The position numbers and the translations under genes were made by a program. DNA of 64,000 nt from Rhizophagus irregularis (taxonomy: Eukaryota > Glomeromycota > Glomeromycetes > Glomerales > Glomeraceae), in assembly GCF_026210795.1 (NCBI RefSeq), contig NC_089439.1:3100001-3164000 (forward strand), in the 5' to 3' direction. How positions within the stretch are numbered: the first letter of the stretch is position 1; each line of letters begins with the position of its first letter. A model generated the notes under the pieces. That model worked only from the letters and a program-made list of their open reading frames with translations. It had not been told where the DNA came from and ran no database searches. This document shows positions 3,743-43,840 of this stretch, piece by piece.

Positions 3743-4995
3743 CAGTCAACTCTCTTTATAGTCACACATTTGGGACAGTCCATATTTGGTGATTATAAAG
3801 AGATGTGACTATATAAAAAATTTCTTATATTAGTATATCATAATTCCGGCCAAAAATTAACATAATTTTAGCTAAAATTATACTCAAAACTTTATTGTAT
3901 CGTAACTCCGCCAATATTAATCGTAGAGAGATGATCTTACCGCCATTCGATTCGTCTTGATGAGACGGTTCTAATGGTATAAAATACATCGAAATCCAAT
4001 CACTAGATTAATTTCCGAAATTAAAAAATATTAATGGTTTTTGTGTAATAACTCTGCCAATATTGATCCTAGAGAGACAATCTTACTACCATTCGATTCG
4101 TCTTAATGCGACGAATCTAATGGTATAAAATACATCGAAATCCAATCACTAGATTAATTTCCGAAATTAAAAAAATATTAATGGTTTTTGTGTAATAACT
4201 CTGCCAATATTGATCCTAGAGAGACGATCTTACCGCCATTCGATTCGTCTTGATGAGACGGTTCTAATGGTATAAAATACATCGAAATCCAATCACTATA
4301 TTAATTTCCGAAATTAAAAAATATTAATGGTTTTTGTGTAATAACTCTGCCAATATTGATCCTAGAGAGACAATCTTACTACCATTCGATTCGTCTTAAT
4401 GCGACGAATCTAATGGTATAAAATACATCGAAATCCAATCACTAGATCATTTTCCGAAATTAAAAAATATTAAATGGTTTTTAAGTAGTAACTCCGTCAA
4501 TATTGATCACAGAGAGATGAGCTTACCACCATTCGATTCGTCTTGATGAGGCGATTCCAACGAGCTATTAATCGTCTTTTTACAATCACTAGGTACTGAG
4601 AAATTTAGCAAAATGTTAAATGGCGCAGTAAACGTAAATCAAGAAATATAATAATGCCGATGCTTAACATTTTGTTGAATAACTCATCAGCCAGTGATCG
4701 CAAAAGGATAAAACTACCACCATTCGATTCATCTCAGTGAGACGATTCTAACAAGCTATGATACATCTTTGTACGATTATTAGATGCCAAGTTATTTAAT
4801 ATATTCTTTATATAACTGTGATTATAAACGGTTCTTTTTAATATAAGATTTTTGAGGATAGGTGTGATAGTGACTATAGATAGATTGTGACTATATAGGA
4901 TAGTTTTTAATAATAAAGTGTTTTGAACATTCAACTGGTGTGACTATATAGTAGAATGTGACTATAACGGGAGTGACTATAGAGGGAGTTGACTG
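3743..4995. mobile_element. TA-flanked non-autonomous inverted-repeat element, copy 1 (1253 bp)
   Basis: The ends form terminal inverted repeats: CAGTCAACTCTCTTTATAGTC at the left and the complement of CAGTCAACTCCCTCTATAG at the right, flanked by TA on both sides (3741-3742 and 4996-4997). CAGT ends with TA duplication are typical of the Tc1/mariner-pogo group. It has no transposase, so it is a MITE-like passenger. Inside are about five tandem units of 144-149 bp (see the repeat entry). An inverted, shorter copy lies at about 18351-19312. Confidence 0.85.
3900..4600. repeat. Tandem array of ~145-bp units in an A-B-A-B order
   Basis: Units begin near 3907, 4051, 4200, 4345 and 4494, each with a core close to CCATTCGATTCGTCTTGATG followed by a near-palindromic GAGACGG. 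Units 1 and 3 resemble each other (CTTGATGAGACGG), as do units 2 and 4 (CTTAATGCGACGAATC). This points to duplication of a dimer of about 290 bp. Confidence 0.85.
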
Positions 4996-18350: not shown

Positions 18351-19312
18351 GACAAATAACTCCCTCTATAACACTCCCGTTATAGTCACATTCTACTATA
18401 TAGTCACACCAGTTGAATGTTCAAAACACTTTATTATTAAAATCTATCCTATATAGTCACAATCTATCTATAGTCACTATCACACCTATTCTCAAAAATC
18501 TTATATTAAAAAAAACCGTTTATAATCACAGTTATATAAAGAATATATTAAATAACTTGGCATCTAATAATTGTACAAAGATGTACCATAGCTTGTTAGA
18601 ATCGTCTCACTGAGACGAATCGAATGGTGGTAGTTTTATCCTTTCATGATTACTGGCTGGTGAGTTATTTAACAAAATGTTAAGCATCGGCATTATTATA
18701 TTTCTTGATTTACATTTACTGCGCCATTTAACATTTTGCTGAATTTCTCGGTACCTAGTGATTATAAAAAGACGATTAATAGCTCGTTGGAATCCCCTCA
18801 TCAAGACGAATCGAATGGTGGTAAGCTCATCTCTCTGTAATCAATATTGACGGAGTTACTACTTAAAAACCATTTAATATTTTTTAATTTCAGAAATTGA
18901 TCTAGTGATTGGATTTCAATGTATTTTATACCATTAGATTTGTCGCATCAAGACGAATCGAATGGTAGTAAGATCGTCTCTCTAGGATCAATATTGGCGA
19001 AGTTATTACACAAAAACTATTAATATTTTTTTAACTTTGAAAATTAATCTAGTGATTGAATATCGATGTATTTTATACCATTAGAACCGTCTCATCGAGA
19101 CGAATCGAATGGCGGTAAGATCATCTCTCTACGATTAATATTGGCTGAGTTACGATACAATAAAGTTTTAAGTATAATTTTGGCCAAAATTATGTTAATT
19201 TTTGGCCGGAATTATTATATACTAATATAAGAAATTTTTTATATAGTCACATCTCTTTATAATCACCAAATATGGACTGTTCCAAATGTGTGACTATAAA
19301 GAGAGTTGACTG
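18351..19312. mobile_element. TA-flanked inverted-repeat element, copy 2 (~962 bp, inverted)
   Basis: Reverse-orientation copy of the element at 3743-4995. The right end reads GAGAGTTGACTG followed by TA (19313-19314). The left end near 18351 is decayed (AAATAACTCCCTCTATAAC instead of CAGTCAACTCCCTCTATAG). It is about 290 bp shorter than copy 1, the size of one internal dimer. A 66-codon frame is shared by both copies but starts at TTG and is explained by their DNA similarity. Confidence 0.8.
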
Positions 19313-22999: not shown

Positions 23000-23007
23000 A
23001 ATAAAAG

Positions 23008-23572
23008 TAGAGTTCCAAATGGGTCAGGTCAGGTCAGGTCAGGGTCATATCAGGTTATCTATTTGACCTGACCTGAACTGAAACCTGAAAATTTTCAGGA
23101 TTTATATTAAAAATATCAAAAAAAATGGTACAAAACATTTTTTTTTGAAATATTGCGATTCAGTTTTTTATATTAAAATCGTATAAAAAGGTGAATCGCA
23201 ATACCCCAACTAACTTTTTAAATATAAAATCAATATAAAAAAGTGAATTCCGTTACCGCAATTCACTTTTTATATATAAAATCGATATAAAAAAGTGAAT
23301 TCTGATACCGCAATTCACTTTTTATATATAAAATCGATATAAAAAAGTGAATTCCGATACCGCAATTCACTTTTTATATATAAAATCGATATAAAAAAGT
23401 GAATTCTGATATCGCAATTCACTTTTATTATATAAAATCATAGTTTCAGGTCAACAGGTCATTCAGGTTATATTGATGTTCTGATGCTGAATTGCAATTG
23501 CTAAACCTGACCTGAAAAATTCAGGTCAACCTGTCAGGTTACCTGAATTTGGTCAACCTGTTCGGAACTCTA
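23008..23572. mobile_element. hAT-type MITE (565 bp) with perfect 8-bp target duplication
   Basis: Ends TAGAGTTCC at 23008 and GGAACTCTA at 23572 are inverted, and AATAAAAG is duplicated immediately outside (23000-23007 and 23573-23580). Subterminal regions are packed with AGGTCA/TGACCT motifs, the kind of arrangement hAT transposases bind. The centre (about 23155-23435) holds four to five near-palindromic units of about 62 bp. Confidence 0.9.
23155..23435. repeat. ~62-bp tandem units, each near-palindromic
   Basis: Units of the form TATAAAATCGATATAAAAAA then GTGAATTCTGATACCGCAAT then TCACTTTTTATA, where AAGTGAATT can pair with AATTCACTT inside each unit. The same unit family forms the core of a different element at 43060-43285. 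Confidence 0.85.
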
Positions 23573-23580
23573 AATAAAAG

Positions 23581-24326
23581 CAATATTTATTATTATTTTT
23601 AAAATAAAATAAAAAACTATAGTTTATAGCTATACCATTTTTTTTATATTGAAAGAGCAAAAATAATATACAACATATAAAGCAATCTACAGTGAGCAAG
23701 AAATGCTGTAAAATAAGTTCAAATTGACTTGAGATTTTGTTTGACATATTTTCACCTAATTGCAGATTATTTTTTAAAATAAGTTCATTCTATTTAAAAA
23801 TCTGTTTATAGTATTTTCTAGACTTTTAATGACAGTTAATACAGGAAGGTTTGGGAGATTTGAAACTTCAGTAGATAATTCCTTAAGGGCATTGGAAATA
23901 GCTTAAGATTTGGTATAGCCATTTTTAATTTTTCTACTTGAAAAAGGTAGAAGCTTAGTAAAAAGAAGAAAGGGAAACTGGAGTATTTATATATGCAAAG
24001 ATCACAAAAATAATCAATTATTACTCATTAGATTATTTATTAAAAAGGCAATTAATGTTACAGTCGCTTTTTTAATATACACTGATTACAGTAAGTACAT
24101 ATTTATTATAATAATATATTATACTATAATTAATTTTTAATCTTAAATATTAAAATATTGTATTAAGATAATATACATAGTAAAAACTGATTATTATTAA
24201 AGTCCAACCAGTCCGAAAATAATACAGATAATATACAAGTAAAAAAAAAGAATTAAAATACATTGATTACATTGTAGAAATACATTAACTTTCTAAAATA
24301 CATATATAATTATTAAAATTATTAAA
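23581..24326. other. 3' flank of the myosin gene
   Basis: AT-rich, no gene. A 64-codon frame at 23553-23747 overlaps the MITE end and is not supported. Confidence 0.5.
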
Positions 24327-27300
24327 TTAATTTGATGAATTCGATGAGGCAGAAGCAGATGAATATACTGAATATACTGATGTCATAGAATTTCTTCTTC
24401 CAAGACGAGACTTTGTTTTCTCAAGTTCTTTTTCAAGTCTATTAACGATAAATATGTAAAAGCGTTATTAAATAGGTAATAAATACGCTAAAATAAAATA
24501 AAATAAAAATAAATTGACCAAACACGTACTACATTAATTACCTAACAATTCTTTCTTTTGCTTCATGAGCTTCACGTTCTGCGCGTTTCTTACTTAATTG
24601 CAAAGAACTTTCAGAACTTTGCTAATTACGATATATTTTAAATAAAACCATTTAATACAAAACCAATCTTATATTCAAAACCTCAAAATAAAATTAATTA
24701 GTAAGCTTACCATTTCTTCAATAGTTTCTCTCAACTTTCCAACCTTTTGTTCATATTTGCAAATTTCCTGTTCAAATCTTAGTTTTGACTTATCATTTTC
24801 TTCCAATTGAAATTGTAATTCACGTATAGTTCTATTAGCTTTACGTAAATTACTTATAGATTCATTCTTTTCATTTGTTTCATTATTAATTGCTAATGTC
24901 AATTCTTCAAGTCTTGTTTCAAGTCTTTTTAGATTTTTTGGTGAAGTACTTAATTTAGTTTCCAATTCAGCTACTTTAGCATTTAGTTCTGTAATCTGTT
25001 TTTCCAATATTATCTGTAATAAAAAAAAATTATAAAGTAATAGCTTCAGTAAATTAATTATTTTAATACATATATATAATAAATTATGTTTCTACCTTTG
25101 ACTTTATTAGCTCTTGGTTCTCTTCTTTTTCTTTTGCCAATTCATTTTGGGAATCCGCCAAACTAGCATCAACTTTTCTCAGTTTCTCACTTAAAGCATT
25201 AGCAGCATCTTGATGTTCTTCAACTAATTGTTTCAGATCAAAAACTTCTCTATCTAAGGCTGATAAGTTTTTCTCTGCTACATGTTTATTTTGACTAGCA
25301 TCATGGTATTGTTCATGGATTTCATCAAGTCTATCTTCAAGATTCTTTTTCAATTTTTCCAATAACATTTTTTGTGTTTCAGTTTCTTCCAATGCCATTT
25401 TTAGTTGGCTCATTTCAATTAACAAATTATTAACCTGCGTTTGAAGTTCATCATTAGAAACTGATATTTCATTATATAATTGACTTAATTCAGTAATTTG
25501 ACCTATCAATTTTTCTCTTTCACCCTCAATTAATAACGGATAACTTTCGTTATTATTAGTTAACAAATCTTTAAGTTTCAAAGATAATTTTTTATTCTCC
25601 TCTTGAAGGTTTAACATATTAACTCTATCTAATTCAATTTCCTCATTAAGTTTATTCATTTCAACTTCGTACTTTTTCCTAGTTTGTTCAAGAGTATATT
25701 GTGCATCATCAATTTCTTTTCTATATTTTTCTCGTTCTTCCTGAAAATCTTCTTGTATTCTTTGTTGAAGTAAACCAAAATCTGCAATTTCTGCAGCATC
25801 ACTTTCGGTCTTCGCTTCCAATTCTTTGATATATAATTCAAGAGATTGAACATTTTCTCGAGAAGTCTTTAATTCATTAGTAACATCTGATAATGATGTT
25901 TCAAGTTTACTAACTTGATATTTTATTGAGCCTTCAATGGTCTCAAATTTAATTCTAGAAAGTTCTGCAGCCTCAAGTTTTGATTTTATTTCATCTAACT
26001 TAATCTTATCCTTTTTTCTCTCTTGAACCTCATCTTCATATTTACTCCTCATTTCTTCAAACTTCTCTTGTAATAACTGATTGGTTTGTTCAAGCTCTAA
26101 TAATTGATCCTTTGAACCAGGTTTAGTAGAATTATATTCATCAATGTTTTCAGGCTCCTCTGTAAGTCTAATTTTCTGTATCAATTCGTCCTTCTCAAGC
26201 GACAAGGATCTTTCATTGTGAAGAAGTTCTTCAAGAGTTATCTTCTCAACTTCCAATTCTACATTAGATGACTCCAACTTCTGTTTTTCCTGTATCTCGT
26301 GCTGTACTTTTTCTTCCAATTCTTTTATACGTTCTTTCAATAGTCTAATCTGCTCATCTTTTTTACTTGGTAACATTGGCCTAATTTGGTAGTAAAGCTT
26401 CCACCAAGGATTTTGTTTGAGTTTGTTAATTGCTCGTATATTCCTTTGAATAACAAGAGCAGCGGAAGTTTTTTCTGAAAGTTTACTATAATCTTTTCGC
26501 GAAAGTTTTCCACGACAATGCGCTTGAAATCTCGTAAACACAAAAGATAATTTTGTATCTCGGACTTCTTCCAATTCAGCCAACTAGTTCCGTATAAATA
26601 ATTGGTTAAAAATGAATTTAAAATAGATCAGCTAACTTGATTCTAAGGAACAGTACATACCACGCCAGCACGAAAGAAGATTTTACTCAAACCAATACGA
26701 TATTGGTCACTCTCAAGTTGAAAGGCTTCCAACAATTTCTGTGCAGCTTCTCGTCCATTAACATAGCCATTTGGAAGAATCTTTGGAGCCAAGATTTCAT
26801 ATCTTTGCCTAAATTCAATAAAACCTAATCGGTTAGGAAATCCCGCACGACATATACGAATACCTTCTAGAACACCATTACATCTTAATTGATCTAGCAC
26901 AAGTGGTACGTTGATTTTTCCAGCCATTTTTTCATCATTAGGCACAATACAACGAACAAAATGAGGATGAGTTGAATAAAGTTGCTGCATTAATGAATGT
27001 AATTGTTCTTTATGCCTACGACCAACCGTGCGGAAAACTCCGCGTTTAACACGATTCTTTGTACCATAATCTGTAGTATCACCAAGGAAATCGGTAAAGA
27101 GTGAAGCTATATATGGCTGTGAAGAATGCGCCAAAAGTTTAGTAACATTCTCATTAAGAGGATCCTTATTCTTATTAAGCCATCCTGAAGTTGTATATTC
27201 CACTTTTGCGGCATAATGGTTGAGAATGAATCCTTGTTGAAATCGAGGTACACCATACTTTGACGATTTATTTTTCCAAATACTATGTAATTTCTCAACA

Positions 27301-29531
27301 AATGTCTTGTCACTAGCCTTTGGCATAACACATTCTTCGTCTAAACAAGCCAATATACCAACAGGCTGAAATCATAACATAATTAATATAAGAAAGATTT
27401 AAATTTTAAAAAAGTGCAATATATATTGACATACTTTAGCTTTTTCAATCAAATCAATTGTTGGTTGTAGGTCTAGTCCGAAATCAATAAAATTCCATTC
27501 AATATTTTCGAGTTTGTATTGTTCTTGTTCCAATACAAACATATGTTGATTGAAAAATTGCTGTAATTTTTCGTTGGTATAGTTGATACATAATTGTTCA
27601 AATCCATTTGTCTGCAATAATTAAATAAAAATAAATTTGTAAAACTTTCAAAGTAAAAAAAAAAATGCATATGCATATATATATTAAAAACCAACTTTGA
27701 ATATTTCAAAACCAGCAATGTCTAGAACTCCGATAAAATAAGCTTTATTTGATGGCGTATCAATTGCTTTATTAATTCTTTCAACCAATGCACCAAAGCT
27801 TCTCTCATATAATGCCTTTGCCAAAGCCTCAATTGAATACAAAACTTGTTCCTTAGTTCTAGCTTGAGCAACCCACTCGCGACCCGCCTTTACTTGAGGC
27901 CTAATAAGTCCTTTTATAAAAGCCTCTGTTGGAATACCCAATACATGACATACTTTTTCAGCTGCAGAAGTGTCCGAAATATAAGCTTGATCGTCTCTTC
28001 CGGAAGTTACATTAATATTTCCGAGATGAAGAACAGATGCTATTATACGAAAAAGGTCAATTTGTTCATCTTGTGAAATACCAACAACATTCATGGCGTT
28101 CTATAAATAGTTAAATGCATTAGTAAAACAATAATTAAATTATTTTAATATAAATATTATACAAACCAAGAGTATTTCGAATTCAGCAGTATCATCCACA
28201 CCATCAATATTTTTTTTTGAATGTTTTGTGAACCTATAATCATCCAATGAACCATCCAATAGAAATTTATCTACGTAGAGATGTGAGTAAATAAATTATT
28301 TACATTTTAATTATCGTAATTTAAGTGACATACCTTTAATTGTGGGTGAAGCTCCTTTCAACAACTGATAAAATATATGAAAATTTCGTTCCTCAGGCGT
28401 CTGATAAGTTACACGTGACTTTTCCAATAAATATCGTTCGATATTCGCACCAGAAATTTGACCAGCCGAACTGAATTCAATACGAATAAATTTACCCTGT
28501 ACCAAGAAATTGAATTATAAACAATTCTAATTAAAACGGAATATACATATATTATCAAAATGAAAACTTACAAAACGAGAGGAGTTGTTATTTCGAATTG
28601 TTTGAGCATTTCCAAAAGCTTCCAATATCGGATTGGCTTGTAGGATTTGTTGTTCGAGTAGTCCATACTTCTTAGTGTTAGCGCTATCACTGGCTATTGT
28701 CGCTATATACTGAATAACCTTTTTCGTATTTTCAGTTTTTCCTGCACCAGATTCACCACTATATATATATATAATATTAAATGATGACAAAGATCACTAG
28801 ATATATAAAAGAAAAGTACTCACGTTATAAGAATAGATTGATTTTCACGCTCTTGTAACATGTCATGATAAGCTGCGTCAGCGACTGCGTAAATATGAGG
28901 CGGCATTTCGTACCGTCGTTTATTTTTATAGGATCGTATTATCTCATCCGTGTATATTGGGAGCGGGTGATATGGATTGACGGCAACCAAAAAAAGCCCT
29001 GAATATGTCTATTTATGGACATAGATGCGTTAGCGCTATCCGAAATAATAGATTGATTTATATTATAACTTACATATATCATATCAGATAAATATCGTAA
29101 TCGAAGGTTATGAACTACAGATGATTCATTTAAATGTGTTAAGTCAGCCATGTCTTCCACCTTATCAAATTTAGGTGGATTCATTTTTTCTGTTTCGTTC
29201 ACATTAACAACACGGGACTAAATTATAATTAAGTAAAAAATATAATAAATATAACAATTCATTGAAAAATAGTTGTTAGAGCGAAATAAATCATTGGATT
29301 TACCGAATTATCATTAAAGTGGACTTCCACTTTTTCGCCCATTTCCTTCGTTATGTAACCGGCGATATATCCCGCTTCTTTATCCTCGACCCAAACCCAT
29401 TTTTTTTCATTGAAAGCAGCATGGGCTACGACGTCAACTACTCCTGCACCACGAGAACTGGTTGAAAATCGTCGAAAAACTTCTCCGCCGGGCAAATATG
29501 TAGAACTTTTTCGTGAATTTTGTGTCGTCAT
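24327..29531 (-). CDS. myo2: Class II (conventional) myosin heavy chain
   Basis: Thirteen exons give 1426 aa: 29531..29304, 29217..29074, 29008..28824, 28758..28572, 28496..28334, 28270..28167, 28100..27696, 27611..27435, 27365..26661, 26583..25096, 25013..24711, 24621..24542 and 24438..24327. Order: SH3-like N-terminus (about 30-80); motor with P-loop GESGAGKT (187-194), switch I NNNSSRF (242-248), switch II LDIAGFE (463-469) and SH helix [20 protein letters not shown]; one IQ motif (about 780-795); WWKL at 826-829, typical of class II; then coiled coil to about 1395 and a Ser-rich end. It is an actin motor. Yeast counterparts (S. pombe Myo2, S. cerevisiae Myo1) drive the contractile ring. 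The tail is shorter than in animal myosin II but similar to fission yeast. Introns are 63-103 bp; donors GTTGGT, GTTTGT and GTAGAA are atypical but frame-consistent. All P-loop and switch residues are present. Confidence 0.95.
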
Positions 29532-31016
29532 TGATAAGTGAAATATATATATGATAAGTGAAATATATATATAACAAGAGGATATTTTTCTTTTCTTTAA
29601 ACGGTTAAATATAATCGTGGTTTACACAACAAGAAGGAAATTGCAAAAAACCAAAGGGGTAAGAATAATGACTTCAAAGACGGAAAATTTGTAAAAAAAG
29701 TTATTTATTTATAGATTTTGATTATAGGTATATTCCTAAGGGGGTTTGTTTATTATCATAAGATCCTTGCCATATTTGTGGAATTTAGAACACTTGGTCA
29801 GGACTCAGGAGAACTATGACGTACTGGACTTTCCTCTCCACGCGTTTTTATAACACTTTAAATTTCAACACCCGACTTTGAAGAATATTCTTAATTCTTT
29901 TTATTATAAAATATAATATGTTTATAACAAATATAACAAATATAACAAATATAATAACAAATATATCAGATGTGAATGAACTTTTTTTTTTGTATAACAG
30001 AGAGGTTATAGCATTCATTTTCACTGATTTTCCATAAATAAAAATTCGAATCTCGAATATTCTGAATAATCACGTCACAGTCGTCACACGTTAATCTTCC
30101 TTTTTATAAAGTTATACGCTATTTAAATCATAATAGCATCCATATGGTTTCCATTTTATCATCGGCATTGTTAATCTTTCTAGCCTATTTGGAAACTAGT
30201 ATGAATAATGATTAAAATTAGAATATAGGGCTGGCATAATATGGTCCAGCTGGCATTAAGTGTGGCGCACGATGAGTGACAAATAAATTTCGCTTAACTT
30301 CAAAATCAAAAATAGGTAGAGCGTAAAGGGTGTGAAACGGTGTTACGCAAATACACCTTATACGGTTACGCAGGGGAAAATTGCACTTTTAATGAAATGC
30401 CGCCAAGTTTATCCAAAGCCATTAACGGTTTTCTTTTTTTTTGAATATCATGTTAGGTAAACCGTGAATATTTAAAAAATATACTTATCACTCTCAAAGG
30501 TACGAAATAATTTTAAGTTTTATACGTAAAATTGTCTTTATTAAAAGGTTTCGCCCTGCATTATTTCTTACTGAAATATTCATACTTAGTTATAATAAAT
30601 TAACTTTATGGACGGCAGATAAAATTTATTATATTAATATAGGAATATATTAAGAGGTATGTTTCGATTTTGACTTTTATAATTGAATATCTCGATTAGG
30701 GGATCATATAATATCGAATTTATTTATGGATTCAAAGTTTAATTTTTGAATCTTACGGGTCTCGAAGAAAAATTTTGGGAATGATCCTAGAGTTTTTTAT
30801 GTTCAATTTGTAGGATTATGTTTAATGACATTTTTTTCGCGTAATTTTTATTATAATGAACTATTTACAATTTCATAATTTTTTATTATTTTAATTTAGC
30901 TCTTTACTTATGGTCTTTTCCAGTAATCATAATACTTAAATAAAAAAAAATTAATCATCTTATGATATATTAAATCTAATAATAATAATTATAATTTATC
31001 AGTTAATCATTGCAAC
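29532..31016. promoter_or_regulatory. Shared upstream region of myosin and MDM1-like genes
   Basis: The two genes are divergent, so this 1485-bp gap must hold both promoters. A patch at 30220-30420 is GC-richer than the rest, with repeated TTACGCA-type words (GTTACGCAAATACACC, GGTTACGCAGG). No TATA box or binding site can be assigned. Confidence 0.5.
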
Positions 31017-34000
31017 ATGATATCCGAATCATTATCAGATCATATTGATCAAAATACATTAATTAAAGACTTGGATGTTGTAAATAGCCAGGAAAATGAA
31101 CTTAATAAGACGCCGGAAGTAAATAACAATAACTTAAAATTTGAAAAAAATGATAATGAAAGCGATACTTCATCAGAAAAACAGTCCGATAAAGCAAAAA
31201 CCAAAACAATTAATGTAATCTCAACTCTACAAGATAAAAGTATAGTTTCCGAAAATGTAATGCAACCAACTTTATCATCTAGTATGGGACCAGTAGAATT
31301 ATTCCAATATTTTGTTTCATCAACACCAAGAATGCTTTTTATATTATATTTACTTATTATTTTCACTTGGAGTTATTTACAAAGATCTCCTTTACTATTA
31401 CTTGTTCTTGGTGTAGCATTCGGTTATATGCTTAGGGCAAATACAGTTACAAATGAAATAAAGGAAAAAATCGTTATGGTAAAAGACACAAATATATCGA
31501 GGAATTTAAGTTCAGAGGTAAATTTTAGAGATAACTTTGTATTTGAATATTTATTATATTACTATCTAATATGTATATGTATTTTTTTTAATTGAAGGCC
31601 TTAAAATCAGCAGAAAAAGTTAAGATGACAGAGCTAGCAATTACAGCTAATATCGATAAATCTTTAGATAAAGTGTTTAAATATATTATACGTGATATAG
31701 TGGACTTCTATTATAGTCCAATAAATCCTAACGAATGTCCAGAATTTTCAAATCAAGTTAGAAATGCTATGAATGTAATGGCAATGAATTTATCTTTATG
31801 TTTCCAAAATTTAGATAAAGTAGAATTAGGCGTTATGTCGAGCTTTGCAATTTCAAACACATTTATAGTTCATTTGGTATGTATATAACTCTTGTTGCGT
31901 ATATTAATTTGTCATCTAGATATTAATAAATTAATTATTATCATCATCATTATTTAGCGAGAATATAGAAAATTTATAGTGACAAATACACCTTTAAGTG
32001 TCTATTGTAGCCAAAATGAATCTTCTGTTCTTACACAGTCAACAAATAGAGTAGCACAAGCACAAATCCTTCGTTCAGTATCTCATTTGATGCTTATAAG
32101 ACTATTACCTTCATCAGAAATTCATAGTCATATTTTAATGACCTTTTTATCTGATTTGTGGGCCAATCTAATTTTTCAAGCAACACTCAATACTATTTGT
32201 GACCCTGACTGGATTAATCGTACCATTGTTGAATATCTAACGGATATCTCTCCAATAGATGCAATTGATGAGCACGAAGCTACTCTATTCCATGAATTGG
32301 CAAATTCGATAGAAGCGGCTGAATTAGCTGAAAAATTAGAACAACAACAACCTTCTGATTCATCTAACTTTGTAAACCCCGCACCTACAGTACCTCATGA
32401 GTCTTCAGGTGAAAATCGGACGTCTATTTCGAGTAATGGTTCAACGACTACTCAACTAAATCAATCATTAGCTACACTAATGCAAAAAAATTTGTCTGCT
32501 GATTCTAAAACAGAAATCAGCAATGAACCAATAGAATCAGTTGAAGAAAATCATGCAGAATCTAAAAATGAAATTACAGTTAAGGAAAACGTTTCACCAG
32601 CGGTATCTCCTACAGTTTCTCCTACAGTTTCTCCTACAGTTTCTCCTAATTGCTTATTTTCGCGGTCCAATAAATCAATTAATTTACAAAATATTTTAAA
32701 TAATCGGGGAGAAACTTTTGCGGAATTTATGGCTTTTCTAGAGGAAAGAGAATCGGCCAATTTACTAAGGTTTTGGCTTCAGGCAGATTCATTTCGGAAA
32801 ATAGCAACTCAAGAAGTTGATGTTAATCTGATTCAAGAGGATGCTTTAGGAATATTTAAAACTTATTTTGGTAATACCGCAACATATCATGTAGTTGTTG
32901 TTGAAGAGGGATTGGTTGAACAATGTGTTACGGAGATATTGAAAGCACCGTCAAGTAATTGTTTTATGATGTTACAAGAATACGTTTTTGTCGTTTTGGA
33001 GAGAAATTATTTTGATGATTTCATAAAATCTATGAAAACTCAGGGTGAAGACATGAGTTTCTTGATTAAAGATGAACACCCACCTGATAAATCAAGCTCC
33101 TTATCGGAAGAAACATCAATTGAAGAAAAGGTTTTAAACCGACCAAACACATTGGGTGATTCCGTTTTATCTTCAACTTCGGAATTCCTTGATAATAGTT
33201 TACCTAGGGAAAATGATTCTGAACATTTGCAAGCCAATCCAAGAAGACGATCTATGTCTTGGTCAAATGGCATATCGGTTGAGGCTCTGGGAGAATTGAC
33301 TAAAAATATTTCTGAAAATTCCGATGCAAAGCCTTATGAAGTTGACGACACGACGGAGAGTAATCGCGAATTATTAATTGACCAATCAAAACCTCCGATG
33401 ATGGATTTAACGGGAATACGTATAAGAATGACTGAAGTTTCTGAGGCGCCGAATAAGTATATTGTTTTAACAAAATCTTTAGGTTATATGATTGAAGTTG
33501 AGCAACCTGGATCAACAGGATGGATTATGACACGAAGTTATACAGATTTTGAAAAAATGCATCAATCTTTAGTACAAGCTTTTCCTAAAGTCGATAAAGT
33601 GACAATGCCTCGGCTAAAGTTTAAAAAAAATCATGAGGCTTGCGAAGCATTAGAAAGATATTTGAATATTTTACTAAGTGATGTTATACTTTGTGAAAGT
33701 GATGCTTTACAAAAGTTTATGAAAAGAGATGGGTTACCAAAAAAGAACTCGGAGATGCCTAATTTGAAAAAAACAAGAGGATTGTCAATCTTATCAGCAA
33801 AATCTATGTCTATGGTGAATCTTTTAACTAATAATAGCGATTCAAAGAATCAACATGATAAACGGAATCAAAGTTATGATGAAGCATTTTTACCGAAAAA
33901 ATCCTCCGAGATATTAAGGTCATCGGAAGCAGCTTTTAAGAAAATTTCCGACTTTTTACCAAGAATTTCCACAGAATTATCAAAGATTCCTGAAGAATTA

Positions 34001-34723
34001 TATGGAAAGAATTCGTCTTCTACAATGGTTACACAACCCAGCATCGAAACAGTTAATTCAACAGCATGGGGATCTAATCGAACCACCCCAACATCTACAA
34101 GTGAAAGTGATACATCTTCAATTGTTATGGTGGATGCTCCTTCAAATCGATCTTCAATTGCAGATAATGATGCTACATCAGACTCAGATGATACAAATTT
34201 AATATCAAAACATCGAGTAAGACCAAATAAACAATTAACAGGTCAAGATATTGATCTTTTAATTGATACAATTTTTGCCGTAGTCGAAGAAATATTTGAT
34301 TTATCAGTTAAATCTCAGTGGCATCTTCGTAGGACTGTATTATCAGTTCTAAGAGAGGTTGTTAGAAGATCATATACGGAAGCAATTAAAACTTCATTTT
34401 TAATGTATATTGATACTTTATCCACTGAAGAAAAGGTGACATCTATAATTGACAATTTTACAAATTCGTTTTGGCCAAATGGCACTTGGACAGGAACATC
34501 ATCTTTACGCACTGAAGAAGAGAAATTAAAAACAAAAGAGGAAGTAAAAAAATTACTTTTACAAAAAGTTGTACCAAGTTCAATAAAACAAGTTATGGGA
34601 TTTGAAAATTCTCGGATTATGATTGGTAGATTAGTTGATGGATTTTTAGCTGAAAAAGAAGTTATTAGGGGTATGGGTGTTAATATATTGGAAAGTATTA
34701 TAAAACTTATTATTGCTGAATAA
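31017..34723 (+). CDS. MDM1: Mdm1/SNX13-14-25-type sorting nexin (PXA-RGS-PX-nexin C)
   Basis: Three exons, 31017..31517, 31598..31876 and 31958..34723, give 1181 aa. Order: acidic N-terminus; a hydrophobic double span at about 103-141; PXA domain (about 168-360, spanning both introns); RGS-like domain (about 500-630, with ETFAEFMAFLEERESANLLR); PX domain (about 742-860, SYTDFEKMHQSLVQAFPK) for phosphoinositides; nexin C-terminal domain (about 1020-1170). This is the layout of yeast Mdm1 and animal SNX13/14/25, ER-anchored proteins that tether ER to vacuole/endolysosome and lipid droplets. The linker carries four near-identical SPTV repeats from a 12-bp coding minisatellite (about 32608-32645). 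The RGS-like domain in this family need not have GAP activity. Confidence 0.92.
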
Positions 34724-34773
34724 TTTAGTCTTTTTTAATGTAGATAAATTTAAGAATGTTAAGTATACATATA

Positions 34774-34894
<121 letters not shown>

Positions 34895-36329
34895 TTTATT
34901 AGAATTAGAATATAATCAAGTTATAGTATTTCAGTTTGGCCTTTATTAGTTTATAATTTACTTACTTTGAAATTAATCAAAATATTCATTTAAAATATAT
35001 TTAAATTAGAATGGGATGAATTTATAATCTAGTAATATCAAAGTTTAAACTATTATAACTATTATAATTACCTTAATAGTATGGCCAATTTTATAATTAT
35101 TATCAGATATTAATAAAAAGAAAATTATTTTAATTTTTTTCAGTAAAATAAATAAAAACTATTATATTAATACTTTTATAAATATTATATGATAAATATC
35201 TTTTAATATCAATTTTAGCAAATATAGTTTAAATATGCTTTTAATAAAAAAAAAATTCAACAAATTAAATTTAATATAATTTAAAAGTAAAATTTTAATT
35301 ATAGAAAATTTCTTAAATTATACTAGGTATTCATATCTTTTCCAGTAATACTAACAAATTTCTACTTCACATAACTTAAAAATATTTATTACTATTATTA
35401 CATCCATAACATTTTTACTATTTATATTTATTTAAAAGACAGTTTTTTTTATCTTCCAAAATTATTTTTTTTTACATCTTTTTAAATATCACTAGTCATG
35501 TAAAAGTAGAATTTTAATTATAAAATTATTGGTATAATAATAGTAAATAAATGCTTATACATATATCATGTGATTAAAAAGTTATATAAAAAAATTTTTA
35601 ATAAATATAATTTTTAAAATATACAGTATATGTATTTTTATTTATTCTATAAATTTATATTACATTTATTTGTTTTTATTTTTTCCTTTCAAATTTAACT
35701 TATAATATATAATTCATGAATAGTAAAATTGGTTTAAATAATACCAAATAAAATGGAGTGATACAAAAAGTTGATTGGTGACTGATTGATGCCTGATTTT
35801 TCACTTTTTGACTTGTGTAAATTTGATGCTACTAAAATATTAAGACGATTTTAATGTTCATTAGGAATGAAATTTACCAGAGGGTTATATTTTACCAGAA
35901 GTAAATTTCACTAGATAAAATTATAAAATTTCACCATATTATGTGACTACAAATTTTATTAAAAAAATTTCTTTAATGAATAAAACTGAGTACAAACTTG
36001 CAAAATTTTATTAACAAAAAGTTTTTTTTAAATTATAGAAAATTTAACTTTAATTAATCCTACACACTATTTCCATCACTATTTATTCCAATAATTTTTG
36101 CTTATTGTAATACACTCCTTTATAATGTAATTAAAATTATCAATTAATAATAATGCGCATTATTATAAAATTTTATAAATAAACAAGAGAGTAAAATGGA
36201 TAATAGAAGATAGATAAAAAGAAATAAAATAAATGATAAAAAAAAAATGAAATAAATAACAAAAATTAAAGGAAAAAATAGTAGCAAAAAATGAAAAAAA
36301 TGATGTAAAAAATAGGGAGTGAAATGAAT
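34895..36329. other. AT-rich intergenic DNA
   Basis: No gene. TGAAATTTACCAG at 35868-35880 is the exact inverse of CTGGTAAATTTCA at 37443-37455 and may mark the ends of a decayed larger element enclosing the minisatellite and the foldback MITE. Confidence 0.4.
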
Positions 36330-36850
36330 GATAAAAAACTATATAGAAGTGGAAAAAATAATGAAAAAAAATAGGTGCAAAAGTGATGCGTGATGAAAAA
36401 TGACATAGAAGTAAAAATGATGATTGATATTGGCATGAAAGTAAAAATGATGATGGAAATAGGCATGGGAGCGAAAGTGATGATGAAAAATCAGTGTAGA
36501 AGCAAAAACAATAACAAAAATTGGCATAGGAGTGAAAGGGATAATTGAAATCAGCATGAAAACAAAAGTGATAACAGAAATTGGTATAGAAGTGAAAGTG
36601 ATGATGAAAATTGATATGGAAGCAAAAGTAATGACAAAAATTGGCATGAGAGCGAAAGTAATGATAAAAATTAGTGTTGGAGTAGAAATGATAACGAAAA
36701 ATAGCATAGATGTAAAAATAATAATAGAATTCGGTATGGGAGTAAAAAATGATAATGGAAATTGGCATAAGAGCAAAAATGATAATGTCAAATAATATAT
36801 ATGCAGAATGATAATAGAAATCGGTATAGAAGCAAAAGGGATGATAGGAA
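36330..36850. repeat. 30-bp minisatellite (about 15-17 copies)
   Basis: Imperfect units of exactly 30 bp, of the form GGAGTGAAAGTGATGATGAA then AATTGGCATA. The period is divisible by three, so several frames on both strands stay open for 60-200 codons and encode decapeptide repeats. These ORFs are a by-product of the repeat, not evidence of a gene. Confidence 0.9.
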
Positions 36851-37010
36851 ATAAAGGAAATAATATAGAAAATGAAAAGGAAACAAATAGGAAAAAAAAG
36901 GAATAAAAAGATTATAGAAAAAAAGAATACTGATTAGTATCATTTTAGTAACAGAAAACAATTGAATAAAACAGTAAAAGGATGAGTTCTACCTTAAATT
37001 CCCTGAAGTC

Positions 37011-37318
37011 ATTTAAATAGGATCCCAGACATCTCTTATAGAACTTACAACTGACTTTTTGCCAAAAAAGGCCCAATTTGCTCTTTTTTATTTTCCGTTT
37101 TTGCGATTATCTCAGTATCCAGTAATCTGATTCATGCAGAATATTTTTATTTTGTAGAGCTCAATGAGAACTATAAAACAAAAAAAAAATTCATACAAAT
37201 TAGACTACTGGATGCTGAGATAATCGCAAAAAACTGATTTTTTTTTGTGAAATTTAGGTCAATCTGCGAAAAAGTTGCCACTGAGTTGTATATGTAATGT
37301 CTGGGGTTCTACTTAAAT
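37011..37318. mobile_element. Foldback MITE (308 bp)
   Basis: Nearly the whole segment is an imperfect palindrome. The outer arm ATTTAAATAGGATCCCAGAC (37011) mirrors ATTTAAGTAGAACCCCAGAC read from 37318. The inner arms TTGCGATTATCTCAGTATCC (37101-37120) and GGATGCTGAGATAATCGCAA (37210-37229) pair with one mismatch. The loop is about 70 bp. No clear target duplication was found. Confidence 0.8.
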
Positions 37319-39290
37319 TATCATTATCTAAAGAAGAAAAAATTAGCAAAGTAAAGTAACAAAAAAAAATAAAAAAATCCAAGTTGTCTTGGAAAAAAAC
37401 AAAAAACGCATGTAAAAAATATTTTGCATAGTACAAATTCACCTGGTAAATTTCACTGAAGTAAAATTTAAAATTTTTAATGTATTGCAGATCATAGTGA
37501 AATTTAAACTCGTTGAATTTTTTAAATTCAGTGGTAATTTTTAAATTAATCCAAAATATTATTATATTTTCTGAAACAATATAATAAAAATCAAAATTAT
37601 ATAATTAATTAATTATATCACATTTAAAAAATCTAAATAATAAACTTATTCCGAATAATTAGTCAATAATATGATGACTATCTCTCTAAGTTTATTATCT
37701 CGTTGGAGTTTTGGTACCTTTTGATATGTTCATGCCTATGATTTTACAATTTTGTATTATTCTTGAGATCAAAAAATAATTCGATTATTGGCCATATATG
37801 AGTTATTCAAAGTAATTATTATATTTTTTCATGAACTTACCAGTATTAAGTGATAGATATATTTTCAGCTTATATGGTATTTTTTGCGAAATATTATTAG
37901 TGCAAATTAGTGTGAATGAGGACAAGAGTAAAAAAGAATTTTATTTGTAAAAAAATATTGAGGTAGGGTATACATCATAGGTGCAATAATCACCTAATCA
38001 CTACGCCTCTCTAACCGTGAACACTTATCATCTGAAATAACGTTACATTTTTTATATATATTAGATTGGCTCAGATAAAGATGTTAGTTTACTTTGTAAA
38101 CACACATCATTACACGTGATTCATTTCTCATATACTGATAAAATAATAATAATACTTTATTTATGAAATAAAGAATATTGCCAGAGCAACTGATACATAA
38201 AAAAATAGCGCAACGAAAACACTGCTCACTACTAGGATGTTTGAATTTTTAAATAAATTATAATATGAATATTTTTTTCAGAAAGTTGCTTAAGAAAATA
38301 ATCAAAAATATTGAGCATTGAAATCAACGTCTGTTCTTCATTCTGTCTCCTACTATTCATGCTTATCATCACTCCTTTAGCATTAACTAATGCTAGCACT
38401 TTATCTGAATTTAAGGAAATTCAAATTCAGTAATTGGAATATTATTAAATTAGGGAGTATATTCTTTTTTAATTTGTGATTTGAGAGAATGGACAGATTT
38501 TTTGTTATTAATTTTAATTGTAATGACATGTTGTTATGTAATTCTCCCAACTGAATTACTAGGAATAATAAGACAATTAAGCCTGATTTCTGACATTTTG
38601 CTTTTTCTAAATGTAAATGTTTATAGTGAATAAAGTTTCATTCATACAGATGCAATAATCCTTTGAAACATTTTTTTCTAAAAATATACAAAAAATATAT
38701 TACCTTAAAATTTTGTGAAAAAGTTAGCTGAACTTCCATATACACCTATATGCTTTAAAAAAGTTAAGGAGATATGAGTCATGATTAACATTGTCATATG
38801 ATGCCAGGAGCTTTATGGCTGAAGGTATTAAAGCAAAAGCATATGTAAATAGAATCTTCATACCTTTTTACATGTAGATTTATCAGAAAGAAACATAGTT
38901 GATCTTACGCCTGGTGATCTTGAAATTGTGAGTCCCTCAATCTTTTACAACATATGCTTTTGCCATCACTATTTACTTTTAGAGCTGGTTTTGTGTTGCA
39001 ATTAAACCTCCTTTTACATTTTTCTCACATTTGTTTGGAGAAAAAAAGATAGAAGCAAATATATAAAATTAATATATCACACAAATCCTGCCTGATGATT
39101 GGCTATTACATCATTGCGCAGAAATCTGTGCTAAGTCTTCTGAGCTGGTGATCACTTCTCCGAGGTTGATGAGCAGTATTCTGAACTCAGAAATTTTCAC
39201 ATAAATATATTACTTTATTATAACAATCATAGCAAATAATAATAATAATTCTAAAACGCTTGATTAATTATATGAAGTGCTATTATATTA
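37319..39290. other. AT-rich DNA without a supported gene
   Basis: Scattered less AT-rich patches (37960-38040, 38320-38420, 38800-39180) look like old coding relics with many stops. No motif could be recognised. Confidence 0.35.
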
Positions 39291-39561
39291 GAAGAAGGAT
39301 ATAATAGCTATTCAGGAAAAACTTGGTATTAGTGGCAATGCAAATCAAATGGCAAATATCAAAGCGAAATGGTGAAAAATACCTGCTGATTCATATGAGT
39401 TGTTGTTAGATTTGATGGAGGATATAATACGAGACTTAGGATTAATAGCAATCCCATTCTAGAAGAGACGCTCTAAAGCAATAAAGCTTATGAAACTTCT
39501 ACGAATATTTCATATGGAAAAATATTTAATTTGCTTTTATGTTTAGAAGACGATATAGTGA

Positions 39562-39569
39562 CAATTTAG
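39562..39569 (+). repeat. hAT target-site duplication, left copy
   Basis: CAATTTAG, identical to the copy immediately right of the element at 42681-42688. Confidence 0.9.
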
Positions 39570-42500
39570 TAGGAGTTCGATCCGATTTTTTAGAGATAAT
39601 CCAGATCAAATTCGGATTCCCTTTAATGTATTTGCCAAATCTGGATAATAATTCAGATTTGAAAATTTTATGGATAATCCGTAAGTTCCAGATCAACCCG
39701 ACCATCAAATTTAAAAAAATCAAAATTTATTATTTTTATTAATTTATATTTCGCAAAAATAAATTATTTTAAATATTATAATTAATTTTCATTTAATAAT
39801 TTTAAAAATTATACTTTTTAAAACTTTATTGAAGCAACTTTATTGAAAAAACTTTACTGAAAAAATTTTATTTAAGAAACTGAAACCCTTAATCTATCTC
39901 AATATGACTCGTTTCATCATCCCATTCTGATGCAAAAACATGCATTGTATTAAGATTTCTTTTTAAAAAAAGCATTTTAGCTGCCAAATTTGTATTTAAA
40001 CTTGTCCTTTTAGTATTAATAAGATTTCCGGCATCTGAAAATAACCGTTCACTTGATACCGACGTTGCTGGTACTGCAAGATACTTTCAGGCAATTCTGG
40101 CAAGTTTTGAAAACATTTGTAATCGTAATTTCCACCAATCTAAAGGATTTTCAGTTTCCAATGCTAATGGTAATGACAAATAATTTGTAATTTCATCAAT
40201 AATTGGTGTATTTGGATATGATTTATCCCCTCTTTTATTTTTCATTTGCCGCTGTTGATGATACTCTTTATGTGAATGCATAGAAGATTATGCATTAAGT
40301 GGAGTTGATGGATTGTTTAATGGTTCAGATGTTGATGTTTCTACTCCACCCAATTCACTGCGGAGTTTTTGGACAATTCGTTGTTTCTCATCAGTCATCA
40401 TCTAGAAAATCTAAGTTTTTATAACGAGAATCTAATAAAGCTGCCATTAAGCCAAGATCGTTTGGAATATCCCAGTAATATATCAATGCATTGTAAATAT
40501 TTTGTTTTATTTTTTCCAAAATACTTACTGTATTTAATGGATTTTTAATTGAAATCTTCTTTTTTGTAATATTATTTATAACTTCATCGTCATTAAAGTC
40601 AGTCTGTTGTATTTCTAGGGCTTTCGATCCAAATATGGTATACTCATTCAAAAAATCATCATTATTTGACAGTACTTCAGTAGCTAAATCAAAAATCATT
40701 TCTTTAATTATTGGAATAACTCAGCTTAAAGTAATATATGAATTTCCAGAAAATTCACGAGTTGCTTCTTCAAATGGCATTAGCAAATCAACAAGTTGGT
40801 CCAGCAACTCCCATTCATCATTCGTAAGTAACAATCTCTTCAATCTATTTTCATCTTTTTTGATTTCACGATCTGTTGATGTGAATAAATCGGCCTGAAG
40901 TTGAGTAATAGCATCCTTTAAAAAAAATAAACGATCCTACGCATAGTACAATGAATTCCAACGTGTAGATACATCTTGAATACAACGCAAAATATCTGTA
41001 TAGTCAAGTTTTCTCTGCACCTGCTCTAATCTTTCCACTTATTTTTGATATTGAAAAAAATTAATTAGTCTCCTTGCGCATGCTACCAAAATTTCTGCTG
41101 GAGCTAATCCCTTTCCAATTGCCAACTGGAGAGTGTGTGCTGTACAAGGAAAACGTCAGATATTTTCACATCCATTTTTCTGATTCAATAAAGGAAAAAT
41201 TACTACCATATTAGATCCATTATCCATTGTGATTGAAGTCACTTGATTTCCAAGATTCCATGTTTCAATACACTTATGAAGTTCATTGGCAATAATGTTA
41301 CTAGTATGTGGAGAAGGAACATATTTATTTTCTAGCATTGTATCTTTGATTTCAAATTTTGACGTAATCCAAGTTGCAGTAACTCCTAAATACCCATGCT
41401 TGGCTCTACTGGACTAGAGATCAATTGTAAGAGAAACATTCTCAGCAGTTTCGGTAAGGAGATTCTGCAAATTTTCCTGATTAAACTTGTAACTCTTAAC
41501 AACCATTGTTCTAATTTTTTTTTCTCCTGGAATAATGAAGGAAGGATCGAATTCTGCCATTTTTTCTTTATAGGCTTCATTAGTAACTGCAGAAAGGGGT
41601 TGATTTGTAAGTAACATCTATTTAAGGGTTGCTTCTTCACGTCTTTTTTGAATATGTTTAGGATGAGGTTTATGATTTTGTGCAAAATCAGTAATTTTAG
41701 AGTTGCGTGGCTAAAAATTAACAATATGACAGTATTTAAAAAAAATTTAATGAATACATAACGGTCAACAGCTGTATTTACCTTTTTTGAAATATCTGCA
41801 TCATCAGATGATACAATGTTATGTTTGTCTCTAAGATGCACGATAAGATTGCCTGTTGAACTTCCACTCTTTCCGCACTTATATTCTTGGCCACATTTTA
41901 TACTACTTCCGTCTAAAATATTGCAAATTCGAATGTCTTCACCTTTATCATTAACCTCCTTTTCAAAATATTCCTGAGTAAATGATGGTTTTTTACGCTT
42001 ATATTTACTATTAATCTCAGGAAGCTCAACTCCTTTGCCTAGATAAAAAACAATTACATCAATAAAATAAATAATAATTTATTGCAATTTATAATTTTAA
42101 AATTTAAACTTTAGTACCTTTTTCTTTGTTTCCTGAAGATATTGTGAAAAAGGAAAGGGTTCTTTGAACGACAGGTAGTTTTCTAGTAACTACTGGTTCA
42201 TGCAAAATTTCTGAACTTCCAGGTGTTTCGATTTGCTGTTCCAAGATAACATCTGGTATTTCAAAGTTAAAATCTTCATCAGGATAAAAATCTGAACTAT
42301 CTGCCATAGTAAAGGTTTTAAAATTCAGAAAAAAAAATAGCAAAGTCCCGTAAGGGGCTAAAGGAATGAAATAGGAATGGTTTGAGGGCAAAAGGAACAT
42401 GATAAAAATAGGGTCCAAAATGAGAAAAATGAATTGCAAAAAAAAAATAAATTTAATGCTAAGATTAAAAGACTGACATAATTTTAAAATTTTTTTAATT

Positions 42501-42680
42501 TTTTTTTTCGATCCTTTTAATTTATATTATTACAATCCAGATTATAATCCGGATGATCTGCAATCCTTAATCCGATAAATTTATGGATCCATCTGTCAGA
42601 AATCATCGGATAAGGATATCCAATTTTTATTCAGATGAGCGGATCAATCTGAATTTACCAGATTACGGATCGAACCCCTA
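39570..42680 (-). mobile_element. Complete hAT transposon (3111 bp), transposase dead
   Basis: Ends TAGGAGTTCGATCCG (39570) and CGGATCGAACCCCTA (to 42680) are inverted repeats of the TAG...CTA hAT type, with a perfect 8-bp duplication CAATTTAG outside. Subterminal DNA on both sides is rich in GGAT/ATCC words (AATCCAGAT, AATCCGGAT), likely binding sites for the transposase. The encoded gene on the minus strand is a pseudogene (separate entry). The intact duplication argues for a fairly recent insertion, although the gene carries several stops. Confidence 0.95.
39889..42306 (-). pseudogene. hAT transposase with BED zinc finger, broken
   Basis: Reads from ATG 42304-42306 to a stop at 39889. Two introns are frame-consistent: 42117..42039 and 41781..41711. 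Order: acidic N-terminus, BED finger (CGQEYKCGKSGSSTGNLIVH and HLRDKHN), catalytic core with ATWITSKFEIKDTM and SITMDNGSNM, CTAHTLQLAIGKGL, STRWNSLYY, and the C-terminal hAT dimerisation block (NPLDWWKLRLQMFSKLARIA, then VPATSVSSERLFSDAGNLIN). This is the ZBED/hAT layout. At least six in-frame stops interrupt it, near 41618, 41415, 41155, 41040, 40940, 40715 and 40082, so no functional transposase is made. All key regions are still easily readable, so decay is recent. Confidence 0.93.
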
Positions 42681-42688
42681 CAATTTAG
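42681..42688 (+). repeat. hAT target-site duplication, right copy
   Basis: CAATTTAG, matching 39562-39569. Confidence 0.9.
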
Positions 42689-42818
42689 GATGAACTCAGT
42701 ATTATTGGTTTATATTCTAATCAAGAAAGGGCAGAAGAAGTCAATGAAAAAGTAAGAGCATATTTCCAAAAGTTTGAGGAATTCCATGGTCCATTAGAAG
42801 ATGATCCAGATGTGAATT

Positions 42819-43444
42819 TAAGGATGGTAAAGTCCTAGGTCCTGGACCTAAAGACCTGGTCCTAAGACCTAGTCTGCAGATCTTTAAGTCTAAGCGGACC
42901 AGGTCCTAAAAAGTCCTAATCATTATATATAAACATTAAATGTGTAGGTTATGAGAGATCTATATAAAATTATATTATGTTTAAATTATATATGTATAAA
43001 TTGTAAATTTGATTTTAAGTAATAATAAATTATAAAAAATGCACTGCAATATTGCAATACAATTTTTATATTGATTTTATATAAAAAAAGTGAGTTGCGA
43101 TATTGCGATTTACATTTTTATATTAAAATCATATAAAAAGGTGAATCGCGATACGGCAACTCACTTTTTTTATATAAAATCAATATAAAAAAGTGAATTG
43201 CAATACCGCAACTCACTTTTTTTAATATAAAATCAATATAAAAAAGTGAATCGCAATACCGCAAATCACTTTTTTTATATTTAGTTATCATTAAATTCAT
43301 AAAATCTATAAATAACTTAGTCAGGATCAGGTCCTGGGACCAGGTCCAGGACTGGTCCTAACAGGACCTGGTCCGCAGGTCCGTTCAATAGGACTTATAA
43401 GTCCCAGGACCAGGACCGGACCAGGACCGACCTAACCATCCCTA
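42819..43444. mobile_element. MITE with GGTCC-rich arms (626 bp)
   Basis: Left end TAAGGATGGTAAAGTCC and right end GGTCGGTCC...ATCCCTA (read inward TAGGGATGGTTAGGTC) form terminal inverted repeats. Subterminal arms are full of GGTCC/GGACC words (GTCCTAGGTCCTGGACC). Flanks TGTGAATT and GTGTGATA look like a diverged 8-bp duplication. The core (43060-43285) consists of the same ~62-bp units as the MITE at 23008-23572. Confidence 0.75.
43060..43285. repeat. Tandem near-palindromic ~62-bp units
   Basis: Three to four units such as TCACTTTTTTTATATAAAAT then CAATATAAAAAAGTGAATTG, then CAATACCGCAACTCAC. Homologous to the array at 23155-23435. Confidence 0.85.
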
Positions 43445-43614
43445 GGTGTGATATTACCGAAATATGGTGAAATGGGAGTAGAGAAAATTAGGGTTACTGG
43501 AGAGGGACTTCCGCTATTTCCAAATCTTACTCCTCAACAATTGCACGAAACATTCGTCAAAAATTTACCAATTAACATCGGTAATCAGTGCCCATGTCTA
43601 AAACTGGTTAGCTA

Positions 43615-43840
43615 ATCTACATTTTTTTGTCACACAGGAGGCTCAGCAAAAAATCTCCCGAGCCGGGCACTTCTCCGGACTAGCTAGTACCACCATTCTG
43701 TAGAGTGCTATGATAATTCCTGATTAAGAAGGAAATAAAATGAGCCTGTCTAAGATAACCACTATATGTGGCAATAAGATCGGGAACAATCTTATCCCTA
43801 AAAAACTTAATATGAATGAATTAAGTTGGTCTACCGCTTT
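43615..43840. other. GC-richer segment, possible 3' relic of a retroelement
   Basis: The segment containing GAGCCGGGCACTTCTCCGGA and a short hairpin (GATAAGATTGTTCCC / ATCTTATT, near 43775-43798) is clearly unlike its AT-rich flanks. It joins directly to the broken 3' end of the LRR fragment. I suspect the tail of a LINE-type element that truncated the LRR gene, but no reverse transcriptase is visible here. Confidence 0.35.

Follow-up and report, generated by a model that had tools for sequence, protein, structure and literature searches.

Different transposon ends around one and the same interior have been described for the CMITEs of Acropora corals. According to the accessible part of that report, six families of terminal inverted repeats (TIRs) enclose a single conserved interior, the origin of which the authors themselves term a mystery; an autonomous element that lacks most of this interior is linked to one of the families (PMC2872659). 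For the Cg_HINE elements of the Pacific oyster, the accessible text reports one group with related flanks around unrelated repeats (PMC7492417). Here we analyse two elements within a stretch of 64,000 nucleotides from the fungus Rhizophagus irregularis (the window), referred to as elements 1 and 2 and, together with their relatives, as types 1 and 2. A description of these two families was not found in the open-licence literature. The elements probably come from two hAT-type MITE families, in one of which the interior was replaced once, long ago, by a core block of several units that has since been co-inherited with its arms.

Two elements with different ends and a homologous core

The coordinates and ends given in the preliminary description (23008-23572 and 42819-43444) were correct, and the combination of different ends with a homologous core holds for both elements. 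Both are real non-autonomous hAT-type elements, whose parts are compiled in Table 1. Element 1 has TAGAGTTCC and GGAACTCTA as its inverted ends and is flanked on either side by the identical 8-bp sequence AATAAAAG, a perfect target duplication. Element 2 has the termini TAAGGATGG...CCATCCCTA; most of the type-2 relatives scanned carry TAGGGATGG. No target duplication is present at the site of element 2, the flanks agreeing at four of eight positions. A coding stretch on the + strand is apparently interrupted by this element (frames 42689-42838 and 43436-43615, both without Pfam match). Elsewhere in the window, tandem arrays of the same ca. 146-bp unit lie in opposite orientations at 3902-4557 and 18799-19160, ca. 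14 kb apart.

Table 1. Parts of elements 1 and 2, in positions of the window
Feature	Position	Strand	Remarks
Element 1, left target-site duplication	23000-23007		AATAAAAG
Element 1, left arm	23008-23149	+	TIR TAGAGTTCC, AGGTCA-type subterminal repeats, AT-rich stretch last
Element 1, core	23150-23441	+	left-edge unit and 52-bp imperfect-palindrome units from 23189, 23241, 23293, 23345 and 23397
Element 1, right arm	23442-23572	+	terminus GGAACTCTA
Element 1, right target-site duplication	23573-23580		AATAAAAG
Element 2, left arm	42819-42925	+	homologous to left end of the autonomous type-2 hAT L077
Element 2, AT-rich stretch	42926-43037	+	without L077 match in the alignments listed; for the most part beyond the segment common to both types
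Element 2, core	43038-43278	+	additional units on the left, left-edge unit starting at 43100, ca. 52-bp units from 43139, 43191 and 43244
Element 2, right arm	43301-43444	+	homologous to right end of L077; terminus CCATCCCTA

The core unit consists of a 28-bp imperfect palindrome and an AT-rich spacer of ca. 24 bp. Its measured period of 52-53 bp replaces the ca. 62 bp originally proposed, and the palindrome first quoted was an idealised form, since the units are mostly AAGTGAATTCCGATACCGCAATTCACTT-like in element 1 and AAGTGAATYGCRATACCGCAACTCACTT-like in element 2. The positions deviating from the palindrome, 7/22, 9/20, 12/17 and 13/16, are common to both types. Selection for a strand-specific RNA hairpin was considered because these four common mismatches would all be G-U on the minus strand; as four of four in the same direction have a chance probability of 1/8, no such claim is made. 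The folding of the arrays exceeds that of shuffled sequences with z -14.8 (element 1, + strand) and z -18.0 (element 2, - strand). Across the genome the core pattern matches 741 times in forward and 742 times in reverse direction, largely at the same sites because the motif is nearly palindromic; a reversed-pattern control gave no match, and the abundance is far beyond chance. The cores of elements 1 and 2 are 76.0% identical over 300 bp and, in another register, 86.6% over 186 bp; between element 2 and type-1 core blocks the identity is 72-88% among the matches listed.

Two end families across the genome

The search covered the chromosome-scale assembly (146,748,485 bases in 32 contigs). Exact left ends were found at 117 sites for type 1 and at 35 for type 2; since ends with mutations escape such a search, both numbers are minima. 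The sample of complete elements was built from loci L001-L038 and L056-L073 with both ends required within five mismatches; repeats of elements already included were omitted, and of two elements at L007 the second was used, so that the sample contained 47 of 48 rows. Three later additions brought the total to 50, 29 of type 2 and 21 of type 1. The choice of loci is biased: 8 + 30 are the best matches to the two window copies, 12 were taken in genome order, six were picked from a list of loci and three for a nearby hAT domain. A marker-based division of type 1 into long and short forms was imperfect (L075, L070, L072), and later counts are therefore given by arm type only.

Perfect 8-bp flanks occur in 20 of 29 type-2 rows and in 8 of 19 type-1 rows, window element 1 among the latter. 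Both families thus generate the 8-bp target-site duplications of hAT elements, with the copy of element 2 lacking one. They also have the attributes of MITEs, being short, bordered by TIRs, present in many copies and without a transposase of their own (the non-coding status was judged by eye from the sequence), even though the sampled lengths of 496-1487 bp exceed those of many MITEs. Twelve core arrays picked by genome order, on C1 and at the beginning of C2 (a small share of the genome), all lay within such elements, nine with type-1 and three with type-2 ends at up to six mismatches. In this small sample no free-standing array was present, which leaves the core satellite of the preliminary description unsupported as a free entity. 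Among 40 scored candidates whose places were compared by eye, 35 were at type-1 ends, one at type-2 ends and four at neither.

Two further type-1 arrangements were noted. At G000 C13:1079184-1079298 left and right ends are ca. 115 bp apart, possibly forming a very short coreless element. In L063 (1027-2505) a type-1 MITE, flanked left and right by CCAAATAC, sits inside a larger foldback-like element whose arms are of the CCAATCAGTCACC type.

An autonomous relative of type 2

Membership of type 2 in the hAT superfamily was substantiated by an autonomous partner, an insert-split copy at locus L077 (C18) in which type-2 ends 5.9 kb apart enclose hAT transposase frames and are flanked by a perfect 8-bp duplication, AAGACCGG. 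Between these ends the Pfam domains hAT-like_RNase-H and Dimer_Tnp_hAT were detected, as well as an N-terminal piece whose match to a zinc finger is weak and lies under the Pfam cut-off. The foreign insert (L077 1836-4245), which splits this copy so that no activity is claimed for it, contains two frames of 355 and 374 amino acids without Pfam matches. Three further copies of one transposase piece adjoin type-2 ends on C12, C27 and C23 (96, 92 and 84% identical); all have in-frame stops.

Most type-2 rows match L077 over 117-142 bp on the left, where L009 and L010 match less, and on the right over up to ca. 190 bp in pieces. A scan of L077 for the common form of the core unit (up to 7 mismatches of 28) gave no hit, and the core therefore looks foreign to the type-2 hAT lineage. 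In the type-2 family it occupies the place that the transposase gene has in the autonomous element. The right junction of the type-2 core falls into T-rich/ATAT sequence, which the parent has as well as the core spacer. Judged by these alignments, type 2 appears to be a family of hAT MITEs in which the core took the place of the former interior.

An autonomous type-1 parent was not found among the 150 of 835 hAT-domain candidates that were scored, so that the inverted ends and the 8-bp duplications are what assigns type 1 to hAT. L074, L075 and L076, where a hAT domain lies near type-1 ends, were rejected as parents because in all three a complete MITE lies next to an independent hAT copy. On C9, type-1 ends enclose a span of 4.1 kb, which is not taken as a parent either, given that the 1.1 kb read at its right end are MITE sequence adjoining foreign sequence.

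Arms and core compared between the types

Eight arm comparisons between the types yielded z values from -0.2 to 5.8, five of them not above 2.1, compared with z 21 for the core blocks. The remaining three (z 3.0, 3.5 and 5.8) may be due to common GGTC-type repeats; the highest, between the short left arm of type 1 and the right arm of type 2, lies above all 200 shuffles. The internal region is thus better conserved between the families than their ends, as in CMITEs. The long type-1 elements L058 (1135-1520) and L067 (1144-1540) have, on the left, an additional repeat region containing palindromes of the AACGTTTTTGCAACGTT type, which was not seen in the type-2 elements listed.

These values bear on common descent, according to which an ancestral MITE already contained the core and the arms later diverged past recognition while the core stayed recognisable. 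The GGTC-type motifs abundant in both arm sets, with their weak similarity of up to z 5.8, would agree with such an ancestry, and so would the TAGRG start, frequent in both types, and the 8-bp duplications that both make. However, the arms have to be recognised by the transposase and should not outpace the core in divergence. Here arms that barely align surround cores that are mostly 72-90% identical in the matches listed, and the counterpart of the type-2 arms is an autonomous hAT where the scan detected no core unit. That the two arm types are diverged forms of one family, which the preliminary description had named as an objection to its own proposal, is made unlikely by the contrast between hardly alignable arms and a core with z 21, and common descent as a whole is in our view an unlikely explanation.

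Inheritance of core units and arms

The left border of the array is marked by a particular unit. Its motif CATTTTTATATTAAAATC (up to two mismatches) occurs once in 38 of the 50 elements and twice in one nested element, and is absent in 11. In the tree of units, window elements 1 and 2 have their edge units in one branch with support 100/91, which comprises nine distinct units only, five of type 1 and four of type 2; the edge units of younger type-2 copies are placed among the other units of that type. Since both window edge units belong to one supported branch, the edge position seems to be older than the split of the types. Together with the presence of the edge unit in most arrays of both families, this branch suggests that the core moved as a block.

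The edge variants of the types differ by one base in length (GATTCAACATT versus GATTCACATT) and were placed relative to the ends for 100 listed sites of 132 in total, using the listed 100 of 117 type-1 left ends (up to C27) and the listed 100 of 165 type-1 right-arm starts (up to C16); for type 2, whole-element matches were also accepted. A type-1 edge was combined with type-1 ends at 76 sites and a type-2 edge with type-2 ends at 15, no site was crossed, and nine had no listed end nearby. The core variant hence tracks one arm type at all 91 placed sites, and exchange between the families does not look ongoing. Such constant co-inheritance had been set against the idea of modular assembly from the outset; it speaks against free exchange but not against an old capture.

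The units also cluster by type, with 16 label changes compared to 55.1 after shuffling (168 distinct units) and 11 compared to 39.2 (122 units), and well-supported branches require at least five label changes between the types. The 51 type-2 units as one clade were rejected in the AU test (p 0.0009), computed after collapsing duplicates and leaving out 61 units with more than 10 mismatches to the reference. Bootstrap values of the unit tree had not settled, and its 52 columns separate few forks. Among 299 units there are 17, some of these near the consensus, whose nearest neighbour of the other type is as close as, or closer than, every unit of their own type; the pair L009/L010 was not compared with each other here.

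Repeated independent capture of a satellite-like core, or continuing exchange with it, would be compatible with the rejected clade and the 17 units with close neighbours of the other type. It is nevertheless improbable given the complete absence of edge/arm mismatches at the placed sites, the same left-edge unit in both families and the lack of a free array among those taken in genome order. Rejection of the clade is expected if several unit lineages moved jointly, and equally with more than one transfer, so that several transfers may be an alternative to one old block transfer. A third source of the core outside both families is also possible. A further thought, to which we give little credence, is that the palindromic array is a transmissible cassette which changes its carriers, its hairpins and AT-rich spacers favouring template switching into any hAT under gap repair; if so, the array would ride on the transposase of its host family as a parasite of parasites. 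A twofold origin of palindromic AT-rich arrays by convergence is conceivable inasmuch as numerous species have tandem arrays within small DNA transposons, as far as the accessible text of PMC9659126 reports, but can practically be dismissed in view of the recurring off-palindrome positions and the common edge unit.

Proposed history of the core

For the preferred reading, one old transfer of a block, we propose the following scenario. Each family would be moved in trans by the transposase specific for the ends and subterminal repeats of that family. Comparison with L077 suggests that type 2 arose as an internally deleted derivative of the autonomous hAT, in which the gene was swapped for a preformed block comprising several palindromic units of 52 bp. 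A likely route would be that the repair of a gap left by hAT excision switched templates into another element, at its AT-rich hairpin array; the T-rich/ATAT right junction and the strong folding of the arrays support this route. After this event, slippage or unequal exchange may have altered the number and sequence of the units in either family, while core and arms presumably stayed together. Of the modular assembly originally suggested, the different arms and the homologous core are retained, and continuing exchange and a free satellite are not.

Comparison with known systems

Where the interiors of MITEs come from is an acknowledged question, and an autonomous hAT without detected core can here be compared directly with its core-bearing derivatives, the transfer history being recorded in the positions of the units. 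For these reasons the capture model is testable across Rhizophagus strains.

Related arrangements are described in the accessible parts of three reports. Tetris, Xstir and miDNA4 likewise carry tandem repeats inside small MITE or foldback DNA transposons, but their repeats also yield satellites (PMC9659126), whereas all 12 arrays in genome order were bound to elements. Cg_HINE resembles the present families as a non-autonomous element with tandem repeats as a module, but is a Helentron and not a hAT, and the change is visible from the flank side instead of as one core in two end types (PMC7492417). By analogy, the coral CMITEs are a close precedent for a core common to two families, with different TIRs around one internal region and an autonomous relative mostly without it (PMC2872659). 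The parallel concerns the way of working and not membership because the present elements make 8-bp duplications and not the TTAA duplications of the piggyBac-like CMITEs, which are ca. 100 bp long with one 75-bp internal region (PMC2872659) in contrast to the tandem palindromic array of the hAT-type elements. New with respect to these precedents are the hAT elements, the fungal host, the tandem palindromic core and the identified autonomous frame.
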